Below, in pieces: positions 3,276-64,000 of a stretch of DNA of 64,000 nucleotides. The position numbers were made by a program, and so were the translations under genes. The notes under the pieces are model-generated. The model was given only the letters and a program-made list of their open reading frames with translations. It had not been told where the DNA came from and made no database searches. The stretch's first letter is position 1. Each line of letters opens with the position of its first letter. The stretch comes from Bacteroidia bacterium (lineage in GTDB: Bacteria; Bacteroidota; Bacteroidia; UBA4408): NCBI GenBank assembly GCA_020845635.1, contig JADLFI010000039.1, forward strand, positions 1-64,000, written 5' to 3'.

Positions 3276-5042
3276 ATGAGTGTAGCAGGAAAAGCATTTG
3301 ATTTTACCCTCTTTAGAAAAATTATGGGCTTTGCTTCGGGCCGTAAATCGCTGCTGGCCGGAGCTGCCTTAATAACTCTTCTGAGCGCTCTACTTTCGCC
3401 TGTTAGACCATATTTGGTTCAATATGCTCTTGACAACTTCATCTCTAACAATGATGCTGAGGGATTAATAAGAATAAGTATAATTATAGCTTTGGTACTG
3501 CTGCTTGAAACATTAACGCAATATTTGGCCGTTTTATTCAGCAACTTGTTGGCACTGCATGTAGTTCATGAAATACGCATACGCTTATATAAGAAATTAA
3601 TACATTTTAAACTGAGCTATTTTGATAAAACTCCTGTTGGAACTCTTGTTACCAGATGTATTAGCGATATTCAAAATATTTCTGAAATATTCTCACAAGG
3701 ATTTTTGGATATTGCCGGTGATTTATTAAAAGTCATAATCATTATAATAGTAATGTTTTACACCAATTGGAAAATAGCTATTTTAAGTTTATGTTCTTTA
3801 CCTTTATTAATCATTTCTACCTATATTTTTAAAAATGCCATACGTGCCGCCTTTAATGATGTGAGAACCCAGGTAGCCTTATTAAATGCTTTTGTTCAAG
3901 AGCATATTAATGGTATGAGTGTGGTACAGGTTTTTAATCGCCAACATCAGGAGTATAATAAATTTAAGACTATAAATAACGAACATCGTAATGCGAATAA
4001 CAGGTCGGTATGGCATTATTCCGTTTTTTTTCCGGTGGTTGATATTCTTTCTGCATTAAGTATTGGGGTATTGGTTTGGTGGGGAGCAAAAGAAACATTA
4101 ATAGGTCAGTTATCTGTTGGTACCATTGTGGCTTTCATTATGTATATTAATATGCTTTTCAGACCTATCAGGCAACTGGCCGATCGTTTCAATACCTTAC
4201 AAATGGGTTTGATATGTAGCGAGCGTGTAATTAAGGTAATTGAGACACAAGAATTTAATATTAACGAAGGTAGTCTTAAACCGAAATCGCTTATTGGAAA
4301 AATAGAGTTTAAAAATGTGTGGTTTGCCTATCAAGAAAACAATTGGGTTTTAAAAAATGTTTCATTCACTATTAATCCGGGACAAAAAGTAGCCTTTGTT
4401 GGTGCCACCGGTTCGGGCAAAACTACCATTGCCTCACTTCTTTGTCGTTATTATGAAATACAAAAAGGTGAAATTTATATAGATGGTATAAATATTATGG
4501 AATACGAACTTAATCACTTACGTACCTTGATAGGTTCGGTAATGCAAGATGTTTTTTTGTTTCAGGGAAGCATATACGATAATATTATTTTAGGTGATTA
4601 TAATCATACCGAGGAAGAGGTAATTGAAGCTGCCAAGGCTACAGGTATTATATCGTTTATTGATAAACTCCCGAAAGGTCTTAACTATCAGGTTATGGAA
4701 AGGGGTAGTCTTTTAAGCACCGGCCAACGGCAACTCATTTCATTTTTAAGAGCATATTTATATAATCCCTCTATTATGATATTAGACGAGGCTACCTCAT
4801 CTATTGATAGTGAATCTGAACAGTTGATACAAACCGCCACCGAAAACCTTACCCGAAACAGAACTTCAATTATTATAGCCCACAGATTAAGTACTATTGT
4901 AAATGCCGATAAAATTATTGTGCTGTCAAACGGTGAACTGAAAGAGTCGGGCACACATGATGAACTGTTAACTCTAAAGGGATATTATTACCAATTATTT
5001 ACCGCTCAAAACAAAAGTAAAGTTAAGCAATTTCAAAACTAA
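3276..5042 (+). CDS. ABC transporter, fused permease and ATPase (MsbA/LmrA type)
   Basis: The 588-residue half-transporter has an N-terminal membrane domain of about six helices (residues 25-320) and a C-terminal ATPase. Walker A is GATGSGKT (376-383), the Q-loop is near 424, the signature is LSTGQRQ (480-486), Walker B ends in ILDEA (502-506) and the switch histidine is at 536. It would act as a homodimer or heterodimer in the inner membrane. The fold is that of lipid or multidrug exporters such as MsbA, but the substrate cannot be read from sequence. It follows truA by eight bases. The next stretch is decayed DNA, and no clear terminator was seen. Confidence 0.93.
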   Translation: MSVAGKAFDFTLFRKIMGFASGRKSLLAGAALITLLSALLSPVRPYLVQYALDNFISNNDAEGLIRISIIIALVLLLETLTQYLAVLFSNLLALHVVHEIRIRLYKKLIHFKLSYFDKTPVGTLVTRCISDIQNISEIFSQGFLDIAGDLLKVIIIIIVMFYTNWKIAILSLCSLPLLIISTYIFKNAIRAAFNDVRTQVALLNAFVQEHINGMSVVQVFNRQHQEYNKFKTINNEHRNANNRSVWHYSVFFPVVDILSALSIGVLVWWGAKETLIGQLSVGTIVAFIMYINMLFRPIRQLADRFNTLQMGLICSERVIKVIETQEFNINEGSLKPKSLIGKIEFKNVWFAYQENNWVLKNVSFTINPGQKVAFVGATGSGKTTIASLLCRYYEIQKGEIYIDGINIMEYELNHLRTLIGSVMQDVFLFQGSIYDNIILGDYNHTEEEVIEAAKATGIISFIDKLPKGLNYQVMERGSLLSTGQRQLISFLRAYLYNPSIMILDEATSSIDSESEQLIQTATENLTRNRTSIIIAHRLSTIVNADKIIVLSNGELKESGTHDELLTLKGYYYQLFTAQNKSKVKQFQN

Positions 5043-5277
5043 ATGGTAGGATTTGATGAATATCCTTACTGATAGTACTCTGCATACATTTGCCACTCAC
5101 ATTATGTAATTATTATAATACTATTGTACCTCAATTTGCCTTTCTCAAGTTGACTTATAATTTTCTCACCATATATTTATTGAAACAAAATTATATGTTA
5201 TCAATCTTTGCGTCTCATTTAGTTATTTCACATAAGAAATCTGTATTTTAATAAACTATATTTTGACAATTGTTCTG

Positions 5278-5859
5278 ATGAATAAAAAGTCGCTTTCAGA
5301 AAGAAATATTTGCACCAAGTTTATCTCTCCTGCTATAGAAAAAGCAGGTTGTGACAGGCAACTACAGATATTGGAAAAGGTTGCTTTTACCGATGGTAAA
5401 ATCTACGTTAGAGGAAAAATCACAGCAAGAGGAGTATGAAAACGTACCGACTACATCCTGTATTACAAACCGAATATTCCTGCTGCAATCAATTGAAGCA
5501 AAGAACAACAACTATTCAGTAAGAGCAGGAATACAACAAGGTTTATAAAATGCTCAAATACTTGACACTCCTTGTGTGTTCAGCAGCAACGGTAACGGTT
5601 CTTTAATTCACGACTGCACAGGTAAAGACGGAAATATAGAAACAGAAATCAGTTTAGACGACTTCCCTACTCCGCAACAATTTTGGCAGAAATACAAAAA
5701 GTATAAAGGCATTGAAAACATAGAGGACATTCAAACCCTAACGATTCCTACCATCAATGAGTTTGGTTCAGTAACAGAAATCATCAAAGCGTTTGGCAAT
5801 GGTGAGAGATCCAAGAAGCCTTCAAAAAATTAGATAACGAATTGTTTAAATTAGCCTAA
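5278..5859 (+). pseudogene. hsdR: hsdR relic: type I restriction subunit with the motor deleted
   Basis: Reading through two stops and two frame changes gives a recognisable HsdR N-terminus. It starts KSLSERNICTKFISPAIEKAG at 5287, continues VRGKITARG and KRTDYILYYKPNIP, then, after a one-base insertion near 5491, EAKNNNYSVRAGIQQGL and FSSNGNGSLIHD, and reaches FWQKYKKYKGIEN. In-frame stops lie at 5437 (TGA) and 5546 (TAA). After GIEN the sequence jumps to what looks like the HsdR C-terminus (EFGSVTEIIKAFGN, then after a frameshift near 5810 EAFKKLDNELFKLA and stop). The helicase/translocase middle, several hundred residues, is missing. Assignment rests on recalled family motifs. No hsdM is in the window. 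Confidence 0.8.
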
Positions 5860-6294
5860 TGCCATTTGTAAAAGGCTATATTCATTTTGTGTGGAGCACC
5901 AAAAACAGTTATTCATTTTTGGATTCCAAGGAAATGAGTTTAAAGGTGTGGAATCACATCAGAGACAACGCCAAGGAGAAAGGTATTTTTATTGATTTCA
6001 TTAATGGTTATAATGACCATTGCCGTTGCTTAATTTCTTTAGGCATAGACCAAACAATACAGAAAGTGATGCAATTGATAAAAGGTGAATCTTCTTTTTG
6101 GGAAAATAAAAATAGGCATACAAAAGAAAAATTTGAATGGCAAGATGAATATTTTGCTGTTTCGGTCTCTGAATCAGCTATTGATAAGGCAGAAATTATT
6201 TAAAAAATCAAGAAAAACATCATTACAAAAAAGCATTTCAAGATGAATATGAAGATTTTTAAGAAAATATGGATTTGAAAAATTTAATGGATAA
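5859..6294 (+). pseudogene. IS200/RAYT-like Y1 transposase gene, inactivated
   Basis: Residues 1-114 (to the stop at 6201) match the IS200-like (Y1, HUH) transposase family of Bacteroidota: YIHFVWSTKN, then NDHCRCLISLGIDQ, LIKGESSFW and QDEYFAVSVSES. The HUH motif should read HCH; here it is HCR (His54, Arg56, codon CGT at 6024-6026). After the premature stop the C-terminal helix with the expected catalytic Tyr continues in another frame (NYLKNQEKHHYKKAFQDEYEDF). A second frame change leads to LRKYGFEKFNG and the natural end at 6294. The ATG overlaps the stop of the hsdR relic (TAATG). Paired hairpins follow directly. The gene is broken by two frameshifts and one motif change, so it cannot make an active enzyme. 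Confidence 0.85.
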
Positions 6295-6298
6295 TTGT

Positions 6299-6353
6299 TT
6301 GGCTAAAGCCAATTTGGAATTTATTTATATAATCCTCCTGCTGAATTAGGAGG
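6299..6353 (+). repeat. REP-like paired hairpins behind the transposase relic
   Basis: Two small palindromes lie in tandem. The first is TTGGCT-AA-AGCCAA at 6299-6312. The second is CCTCCT (6334-6339) and AGGAGG (6348-6353) around an eight-base loop. Imperfect hairpins of this kind are known substrates of IS200-like and REP-associated (RAYT) transposases, which nick at a short guide next to the stem. Their place five bases after the transposase stop fits a right end or REP pair. The function is inferred from position and shape only. Confidence 0.55.
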
Positions 6354-6432
6354 CAGTTCAATAACCCATTCCTTTAAATCAATTGAATGCGGTTTCAACC
6401 CATTCCATCAAAATAAAACCATTACCCACCAT

Positions 6433-6588
6433 CAAACCCAAGAAATCTATTTTAAAACCCCTGAAAATTGGGAATGGTGTAGGTTGAGTGAGATAATTGA
6501 AATGCTTTATGGTAAAATCCTATCAAAATCACAAGGTATAGAAAGTAAAATATTAAACCTTTTCATTTTTTTGCATATTGACATTTAA
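6433..6588 (+). pseudogene. hsdS: hsdS fragment (type I specificity subunit)
   Basis: One frame is open from 6307 to the stop at 6586-6588, but no start codon precedes the coding-like part. From about 6433 it reads HHQTQEIYFKTPENWEW then CRLSEIIEM. The element PENWEWxRLxEI is a hallmark at the start of a target-recognition domain in type I specificity subunits. Only about 35 residues look like HsdS; the rest is lost or scrambled. Together with the hsdR relic upstream this marks a dead type I restriction-modification locus with the transposase relic between its parts. Confidence 0.6.
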
Positions 6589-6818
6589 GTGAGTATTTTT
6601 GAATATAAATAGAGATTATTTTAAGGATAGTCAATATGGGCAAGTATATTACATAGCTTAACAAGAGCGGCAGAGCAACCAATACCAACAATAAAAATTG
6701 ATAGTACATAACCGACATGATTCAAGTTGTGGGTAAAAGTGAGTTTCAGTACACAATTTAAAATAAGGCGACAAGCAAAAAGCCAAATGTGAATGGCATC
6801 AATCATAAAAACAAAAAA

Positions 6819-7730
6819 ATGAAAAAAGTACTACTCATCGCAATTTCGGCATTTTCAATAAATGCTTTTGCACAGCCTGTCATCTTGAATGGCAACAACA
6901 CCCCTCCCTCAGGACTTTCTGTCCCTGTTAACTATGCAACCACAACTTCGGTCGGCCCCGGTGGCAGTAACCAGATGTGGAACTTCGGTTCACTCTCCTA
7001 TACCCCAATTGGTACAGTTGATGTAATTGTTCCATCTACCTCTCCAATTGGCGCATCATTTCCAACATCTAACTATGCACTTTCCTTGGTTGGACAGAAT
7101 TCATACAGTTTTTTTGAAGTCTCATCTAATAAAATGGAGGTGCTTGCATGGACTATTTCTACTCCGGGTTCGGGAAATGATTATTCTCCCAATCCCAAAA
7201 CTCTTATGAAATTTCCGTTTAATTTTTTAGATACTGTAAATGACACCTATCAAAAAGTTGGTGAATCTGTAAATAATGTTACTTTAACTTATGATGGATA
7301 TGGAACATTAGTTACCCCTTCTATTACCTACACCAATGTTGTTCGTGTGAAAGAAGACTATGGCGGAGGTGCTATAGACTATCAATGGTATATCTTAAAC
7401 CCATTTATGTCAATTGCAATTTTCGATCATAACTTTAATAGGTTATATCATTTTGGAGCTTCCCAAGCCACAGACATTACAGACCAAAATAATCTGCAAA
7501 TGCAAGTAAGCGTATATCCCAATCCTGCTGCCGATTATATAACTATCACTAACATTCCAAACGGTTCAACCATAAAAATAACAGATATTACAGGCAGAAC
7601 CTTTTACAGTGCTGAAAACAACAACGAGAAAACAACCATCAGCACAACAAAATTTGTAAACGGAGTGTATTTCATTCAGGTAGCAAATAGCAGTTTAATC
7701 GCTACAAGAAAATTTGTAGTAAACCATTAA
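6819..7730 (+). CDS. Secreted protein with T9SS type A sorting domain
   Basis: The 303-residue product starts with a signal peptide (MKKVLLIAISAFSINAFAQ). A middle region of about 200 residues, rich in Gly, Ser, Thr and aromatics, has no family I recognise. The last 75 residues form a type IX secretion sorting domain: VYPNPAADYITI, ITDITGRTFYS, then a GVYFIQV strand near the end. Such proteins cross the outer membrane through the Por machinery and are released or anchored at the surface. The frame is open back to a GTG at 6789, but the ATG at 6819 begins the signal peptide. A strong hairpin terminator follows. Confidence 0.88.
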   Translation: MKKVLLIAISAFSINAFAQPVILNGNNTPPSGLSVPVNYATTTSVGPGGSNQMWNFGSLSYTPIGTVDVIVPSTSPIGASFPTSNYALSLVGQNSYSFFEVSSNKMEVLAWTISTPGSGNDYSPNPKTLMKFPFNFLDTVNDTYQKVGESVNNVTLTYDGYGTLVTPSITYTNVVRVKEDYGGGAIDYQWYILNPFMSIAIFDHNFNRLYHFGASQATDITDQNNLQMQVSVYPNPAADYITITNIPNGSTIKITDITGRTFYSAENNNEKTTISTTKFVNGVYFIQVANSSLIATRKFVVNH

Positions 7731-62790: not shown

Positions 62791-64000
62791 ATGATAAGGA
62801 ATATTAAATCATACTGCAAATCGTATAAATCAATATTAATAATTGTATTGGCCGGATTACTTGCACGATTAATATTTACATGGTTTATAGCACCATCCTT
62901 TTTTAACAGAGAATATATTGAAATTGATAATGACACCCCTATTTGGATGGCCTCCTTGGCAAATTTACTATTAAATGGAGAGCTTAGCTCTAACCTTAGT
63001 AATGAAATGGCCTCTTATGGTCGTATGCCCGGCTACTCATTTTTTTTTCTACCTCCTTTTGGATTGGCTACTCTTATATACAACATAAAGGGTTTTGACA
63101 GCACAAATCCTGAGATATGGTTTCTAATAATAAAAATTACAGCATATACACAAATTGTTTTAGACAGTATTAGTATATTTTTGATTTACTATTTTTCACT
63201 CAAAACCATAAAACAACATAGTGTTGCAATTATTTCAGCATTGCTTTATGCCTTCTATCCTTTTGTAATCGTATGGAATCCGGTGTGCTATGCTGAAATA
63301 CCATCTATATTTTTTGCCCTATTGGCTCTGTCCATTATAGTGGGTTCCGATAAGAAAATTTATTGGGCTTTAGCCGGGTTTTCTATGGGTTTCTCCATAC
63401 TGAATAAACCACAATATGCTATCCTTGTTCCTTTGATATTATTGCTTATTCACTCAAAGTATAAAGATAATAGTGGAACTAATCTTAAACATTTTTTGGT
63501 ATTTATAGTTTGCTTTGGTTTAATGTATGGTTCTTGGCCATTACGTAATTATATCAGATTTAATAAGGTTGTTTTTACCCAAGACATCAGAGCCTTTAGC
63601 AACTGGAATGTTGATGTTATGGCATTTATGCATTATATATACAGTGTAAAATCTGAATGGGAGCCTCAGTTTACTAATATTATCAAGAATCAGAAAGTAA
63701 CTTTTCCCAAAGAAGCCTACACCAATAGCCAAGATTCAATTAAGTTGGAACATGCCATAGCTTTAGCAAAAACATGTGGGGCGGGATTTAGCCAATGGAA
63801 CGGGTATTGGAAAGAACCAATTTCCCCGGGTGATAGTATGAATGATTGTTCCTCTGAAATAGCACAAATATTTAATGAATTGAGAGAAAAACAAATTAAA
63901 CAATTTCCTTTCAATTATTATGTATATGTTCCTTTGCAAAACCTAAAGAAAGCAATCTTTAAAACAGAACTGGTAAATAAAAATAATATCATGGGTAAGG
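62791..64000 (+). CDS. GT39/PMT-like membrane glycosyltransferase, cut by window end
   Basis: An open frame from the ATG at 62791 continues to the last base (403 codons, no stop). It begins with an N-terminal helix (ILIIVLAGLLARLIFTWFIA), then DNDTPIWMASLANLLLNGEL, the loop MPGYSFFFLPPFG and several more helices, then WPLRNYIRF. This is the layout of GT39/ArnT-type enzymes, which move sugars from polyprenyl phosphate at the periplasmic face. The acidic DND near the first loop is where the catalytic aspartate lies in that family. It is the last gene of the polysaccharide-type run. Confidence 0.82.
   Translation, partial: MIRNIKSYCKSYKSILIIVLAGLLARLIFTWFIAPSFFNREYIEIDNDTPIWMASLANLLLNGELSSNLSNEMASYGRMPGYSFFFLPPFGLATLIYNIKGFDSTNPEIWFLIIKITAYTQIVLDSISIFLIYYFSLKTIKQHSVAIISALLYAFYPFVIVWNPVCYAEIPSIFFALLALSIIVGSDKKIYWALAGFSMGFSILNKPQYAILVPLILLLIHSKYKDNSGTNLKHFLVFIVCFGLMYGSWPLRNYIRFNKVVFTQDIRAFSNWNVDVMAFMHYIYSVKSEWEPQFTNIIKNQKVTFPKEAYTNSQDSIKLEHAIALAKTCGAGFSQWNGYWKEPISPGDSMNDCSSEIAQIFNELREKQIKQFPFNYYVYVPLQNLKKAIFKTELVNKNNIMGK

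Follow-up and report, generated by a model that had tools for sequence, protein, structure and literature searches.

A type I restriction gene that ends within the start codon of a transposase gene raises the question of whether the second gene is a settled member of the operon, a late insertion, or a neighbour brought close by decay. Such a junction occurs in the 64,000-nucleotide stretch of DNA analysed here (the window), which comprises positions 1 to 64,000 of the forward strand of contig JADLFI010000039.1 of a Bacteroidia bacterium (GTDB lineage UBA4408; GenBank assembly GCA_020845635.1). A preliminary description of this DNA regarded the transposase gene as a settled, translationally coupled member of a restriction operon. 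In the present study, the junction is considered together with its surroundings, its intact relatives, and the distribution and selection of the Y1 gene family to which the transposase gene belongs.

Results

The stop-start junction and the remains of the operon

Positions 5851-5863 read TTAGCCTAATGCC, in which the TAA at 5857-5859 and the ATG at 5859-5861 have one base in common, forming a forward-strand TAATG (5857-5861) that closes the hsdR relic and opens the Y1 gene with a 1-base overlap. The frame closing at this TAA reads ...EIQEAFKKLDNELFKLA*, and in an alignment with 10 other copies the ATG at 5859 coincided with the homologous start of the Y1 genes of relatives. The overlap is exact because homology, and not ORF calling, sets both the end of hsdR and the start of the Y1 gene. 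The sharing of the last A of the relic's TAA with the transposase ATG, as first described, was thus confirmed by the sequence and by the homology of both ends.

The hsdR relic, on the forward strand, consists of two directly joined parts. The N-terminal part (5275-5717) represents residues 1-146 of an EcoAI/FtnUII-type HsdR in a broken frame, and its positions 5275-5713 showed 71-78% identity in tblastn to these residues of the intact hsdR of locus L033. The C-terminal part (5705-5859) ends in the TAA at 5857-5859 and was recognized by its match to the end of the intact hsdR of locus L036 (5705-5827, 71% over 41 residues). Approximately 620 HsdR residues are missing between the two parts, there are several frame breaks, and the read-through gives a weak match to the final positions of Pfam EcoEI_R_C, below the cut-off (E 0.0024). 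The N-terminal part is 83% identical in DNA to a second hsdR located at a contig end in the same genome. This second hsdR, of the L033 type (L125:8702-9646, equal to G000:C43:17701-18645; 90% protein identity), runs off the contig.

Downstream, a forward-strand hsdS fragment (6409-6534), comprising the linker and the start of the second target-recognition half, was identified by tblastx and blastn to hsdS of L033, L035, L036, and L151, and the fragment alone gave no Pfam match. No match to hsdM was found in the first 16 kb of the window, and an L033-type hsdM was not found in the genome, where the best match to L033 hsdM was 32% and lay on another contig. To the left of the relic, truA and an ABC transporter, reaching up to approximately 5040, are kept in the genus relatives L252 and L253 (L255 in part). 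In the approximately 1.5 kb beyond the ABC transporter in these relatives, no match to the relic was found, and the living form of the window locus was not seen because no intact sister copy was found.

The Y1 (IS200-like, HUH/Tyr) transposase-family pseudogene (5859-6294, forward strand) was supported by PF01797 (E 5e-20), by the alignment, and by its frames, the reading frame being kept over 5859-6203 and shifted thereafter. Its HUH motif is DHCR, the second His being replaced by Arg at 6024-6026, whereas this His was kept in 10/10 other aligned copies. The helix bearing the catalytic Tyr is also lost, owing to a frameshift a little upstream of the in-frame stop (6201-6203). Judged from its sequence, the locus is what remains of a type I restriction operon of the EcoAI/FtnUII type, and every piece of it is dead, with hsdR gutted, hsdM gone, and the HUH motif broken.

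Beyond the pseudogene, a forward-strand palindrome, GGCTAAAGCC, lies at 6301-6310, 6 bp past the homologous Y1 stop; such palindromes occur in most members of the subfamily. It is followed by a second, CCTCCT-N8-AGGAGG (6334-6353, forward strand), as found behind many relatives. The right flank of the window was 74% identical to that of L036. The window's own genome contains 20 instances of the form GGCTWWAGCC, versus 2 of a reversed control. A further GGCTTTAGCC palindrome lies near the end of the window (63366-63375), and approximately 20 sites of such form were counted in the genome.

Family assignment

The motif Y[IV]xxQxxHH was present in 71/73 proteins of the set, its region in the window lying beyond the frameshift, and DHxH was present in 65/73, as DHCH in seven hsd-linked copies and as DHLH in L073. 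According to Quentin et al. (2018; PMC6006769), TnpAY1 subclass 1.2 is marked by the signature Y---Q--HH and an HUH motif of the form DH[IV]H, and is a low-copy group, generally without IS200 ends, found mostly in Cyanobacteria and Bacteroidetes. The present proteins resemble this subclass in Y---Q--HH, the WQ motif, low copy number, and occurrence in Bacteroidota, and may do so in the general lack of IS200 ends, but differ in that a table of that paper gives no REP for the subclass, whereas the palindrome GGCTAAAGCC stands behind the gene in most members here. Since its HUH motif is DHCR, the window copy can be at most a dead member of the subclass. The window's own genome contains one full match and one 30% match to the Y1 protein, and other genomes mostly contain one or two close copies. 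Two close tandem Y1 copies with near-identical flanks in L060 (6001 and 6695) are unusual in this mostly single-copy family.

RAYT (TnpAREP, class 2) proteins are likewise low-copy HUH/Tyr proteins with dispersed palindromes, but their own Tyr context is Y---NP, whereas that of the present proteins is Y--xQxxHH. The RAYT label was rejected, as NCBIfam REP_Tyr_transpos scored 34.8 for the L033 protein and 22.4 for the window protein against a cut-off of 80. With IS200/IS605 elements the window copy shares the Y1_Tnp family (PF01797); it differs from them in that no left end was found and in having one close genome copy instead of many. The hsdR of L033, scored in place of the relic, matched NF046051 of the EcoAI/FtnUII type (1177.7 bits, cut-off 550). 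The order of this operon type is hsdR-hsdM-hsdS, to which the relatives add Y1 genes joined to hsdR and/or hsdM, whereas the window has no hsdM and only fragments of hsdR and hsdS.

Intact type I loci carrying Y1 genes

A scan with the Y1 protein yielded the 30 closest loci, and 60 further regions were fetched around more copies. Type I genes or a fragment occurred in 7/30 of the closest loci (L032-L036, L042, and L047), L034 having only an hsdR fragment beside the Y1 gene. The search for other Bacteroidota type I loci in which a Y1 gene overlaps the end of hsdR by TAATG, proposed in the preliminary description, was successful with L033 and L035. L033 has the order hsdR-TAATG-Y1-hsdM-TAATG-Y1-palindromes-hsdS, each gene with Pfam support, and in L035 hsdR-TAATG-Y1 is followed by hsdM-Fic-Y1 (15 bp). 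In L032 the Y1 gene is joined to hsdM by TAATG, and hsdR and hsdM stand 6 bp apart with nothing between them; the Y1 gene at that junction in L033 and L035 is therefore an addition. Among the 60 further regions, the sole type I case was L073, of a different type I family, in which the hsdR TAA is directly followed by the ATG of the Y1 gene, ahead of an MS fusion. The position of the Y1 gene thus varies, being behind hsdR, hsdM, or Fic.

In L036, L042, and L047, the Y1 gene lies between hsdR and hsdM, 94, 223, and 139 bp behind hsdR, respectively, with the left palindrome GGCTTTAGCC present, and the hsdR of L036 also ends in TAATG, 94 bp ahead of the Y1 ATG. These three intact loci, with the gene at 94-223 bp and the left palindrome in place, speak against the initial view as it was stated.

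Some of these loci showed other features. Between the Y1 gene and hsdS, L033 (6480-6680) contains many head-to-tail repeats of the 15-bp unit AATTCAGATGGAGGC, and shorter runs of this kind lie behind the Y1 gene in L032, L034, L036, and L037. L035 contains a second hsdM 3' end (6741-6778; LLNQLEQAVK*-like, with ATGA into hsdS) just before hsdS and after Fic, Y1, and the palindromes, an arrangement resembling an insert with a copy of the hsdM tail on either side.

Frequency of the association

The subfamily set consisted of 77 entries drawn by similarity to the window protein and not by context, without the window entry, duplicates, and L110 and L115 (no ATG); L108 was counted twice, and L060 contributed two copies. 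With hsd genes detected by the L033 and L035 proteins and some contigs short, 8/77 entries lay in type I loci, versus 0.2-1.0 expected if genomes have 0.5-3 type I loci each (P ~1e-5 or less). Joins of -1 to 0 bp to an upstream ORF occurred only in L032, L033, and L073, all of them to hsd genes. Abutment was found in 3/8 hsd-linked entries versus 1/69 others (P 0.003), with a doubtful ORF at +1 in L098 counted against the association.

In the reverse direction, EcoEI_R_C matches were found in 98/296 genomes, and 80 hsdR loci, chosen without reference to transposases, were examined with Y1 profiles that included extra ones covering longer Y1 genes such as those of L149 and L161. A Y1 gene occurred within 9 kb in 8/80 loci, and 8/8 were co-oriented with hsdR (P 0.004), although the Y1 matches in L172 and L237 were weak and in pieces. 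Strong Y1 genes numbered 4 versus approximately 0.4 expected from 315 hits (summed matches) in the 296 genomes (P ~1e-3). Only 2/80 loci had a Y1 match in the 200 bp following hsdR, one of them weak and in pieces, and an overlap of hsdR with a Y1 gene was seen in 0/80.

The L033 hsdR as query matched in 24 of 395 genomes; 22 loci were examined, and 19 had both hsdR and hsdM. A Y1 gene occurred in 2/19 of these (L149 and L161, both longer and of other kinds), which, along with the 8/80 hsdR loci, rules out the Y1 gene as a universal part of L033-type operons. The gap between hsdR and hsdM exceeded 400 bp in 8/19, with cargo such as Abi_2, PDDEXK_3, and GmrSD_N; longer Y1 genes also occupy these slots. 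Across the EcoAI-type loci L150-L163, these gaps contained varied small genes, those of L150 and L155 having no Pfam match.

Behind 98 hsdR stops, a mechanical start search found that the next ORF overlapped in 13 cases and that TAATG was present in 5 (L155, L186, L192, L201, and L236), and by the profiles used none of the five TAATG-joined genes was a Y1 gene. The TAATG overlap of hsdR is thus not specific to transposases and is shared with unrelated genes. Since a tight join to any next gene is common for hsdR, a Y1 gene with such a join behaves as an operon gene.

Phylogeny and selection

In a tree of 57 proteins, from which L061, L072, and entries below 55% were left out, the hsd-linked Y1 copies required 6 changes, at least 3 of them forced by well-supported branches. 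Y1 genes accordingly entered type I operons at least three times, and such repeated origin indicates recurrent capture and not one ancestral arrangement. A single event probably underlies the copies in L032 and L033. The window copy was placed near L033, L032, and L035 with weak support.

Among the window-type Y1 copies of L032, L033, and L035, dN/dS was 0.13-0.14 at dS 0.25-0.31, and that of hsdR and hsdM among the same three loci was 0.02-0.05; the Y1 copies in operons are under purifying selection. Between the Y1 genes of the other type behind hsdR in L033 and L035, dS was 1.94, compared with 0.57 for hsdR and 0.50 for hsdM. Because this value is far above those of hsdR and hsdM, the two genes may have arrived separately, each with a TAATG join, or may reflect gene conversion.

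Short stretches resembling the C-terminal coding tail of hsdM stand directly before the Y1 start in L061, L062, and L046, where no hsdM was detected, and more weakly in L045 and L057. In a vestige test against mononucleotide shuffles, 8/81 entries reached P <= 0.01, including two true hsdM joins, L061 twice, L068, and L044. Such tails could have been carried off from an hsdM join, for which the test is suggestive only.

Discussion

The intact relatives show Y1 genes repeatedly taken into type I restriction operons, and because of this the overlap in the window would be the trace of a recurrent arrangement and not a fluke. We propose the following scenario, which we consider probable: a low-copy Y1 gene of TnpAY1 subclass 1.2 was captured as cargo behind hsdR in a type I operon, where it is read by TAATG stop-start coupling. 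The gene would have been taken into a cargo slot directly behind hsdR and would be read in sense orientation from the operon message, ribosomes that end hsdR restarting on the overlapping ATG. The encoded protein would most likely be a nuclease carried as a self-maintaining passenger, processing the GGCTTTAGCC and CCTCC palindromes that flank its gene; the operon would provide a safe, expressed home, and selection on the nuclease activity itself would preserve the gene. The left palindrome may have been lost because the operon supplies expression there. The whole operon in the window would then have decayed. The initial view of a settled, coupled operon member is partly supported, by the intact joins at L032, L033, L035, and L073, although the lack of any such overlap among the 80 hsdR loci counts against it; the Y1 gene nevertheless appears to be recurrent operon cargo and not a fixed or working restriction subunit.

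The overlap in the window may instead have arisen during decay, if an L036-like locus lost the stretch between its two ATGs through a small deletion with ATG microhomology and the coupling was never used. Judged by summed tblastx score, the hsdR of L036 is the best match to the relic and aligns with both of its parts, and since L036 has a spaced Y1 gene, 94 bp beyond the TAATG, with a left palindrome, a late deletion is conceivable. The similarity of the two right flanks and the other large losses from the relic, namely the middle of hsdR, hsdM, and half of hsdS, are consistent with such an event. However, decay does not explain the exact join where genes are intact, as in L032, L033, L035, and L073, and we hold this origin to be possible but doubtful. 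It appears extremely unlikely that an ordinary IS200-type element was inserted late and has its left end concealed in the hsdR tail, even though the L033 protein passes NCBIfam transpos_IS200 (66.9, cut-off 55) and a left palindrome exists in 26/47 subfamily entries (L072, a duplicate L061 entry, and entries below 60% left out). Apart from the right palindrome, no GGC..GCC palindrome was found in 5001-7000, including the hsdR tail, which leads towards the stop as hsdR-homologous DNA, and the hidden left end, whose presence in the hsdR C-terminus would have spoken against the initial view, was rejected; furthermore, close copies number one in the window's genome and one or two in most genomes. 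The right palindrome was present within 100 bp past the stop in 36/47 entries. As 21/47 entries lack the left palindrome, little can be concluded from its absence in the window, and the subclass generally lacks IS ends. In line with the initial argument on a fresh IS, the hsdR tail has no left palindrome, but a missing left end is not special.

The Y1 protein might also take part in the work of the type I enzyme, for instance as a single-strand nickase on HsdR-pumped DNA or as a shuffler of hsdS via the palindromes. Y1 genes are coupled to R or M genes, co-oriented, and under purifying selection; the palindromes stand between the Y1 gene and hsdM or hsdS; and in L033 both hsdR and hsdM carry a Y1 gene. 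On the other hand, most similar type I loci have no Y1 gene, the two among 19 L033-type loci being of other kinds, its position varies among type I loci, no PADLOC model matches the Y1 protein, and most family members lie outside detected type I loci. We thus regard a working partner as very unlikely. The broader proposal that an HUH nuclease is a recurrent, coupled type I accessory in Bacteroidota, acting with the enzyme or reshaping hsdS via palindromes, with the window as its relic, is likewise improbable.

The word 'restriction' does not occur (0 occurrences) in the main text of PMC6006769. By title or abstract opening, and mostly among journals outside subscription, no description of Y1 genes coupled to hsd genes was found in the literature. 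In the scenario of capture as cargo, the locus would show a route by which a transposase-family gene enters a host-defence operon, with a one-base overlap, the loss of one element end, and continued purifying selection. It would also mark the hsdR-hsdM and hsdM-hsdS junctions in type I operons of Bacteroidota as cargo slots, which may be a hunting ground for other small defence genes.
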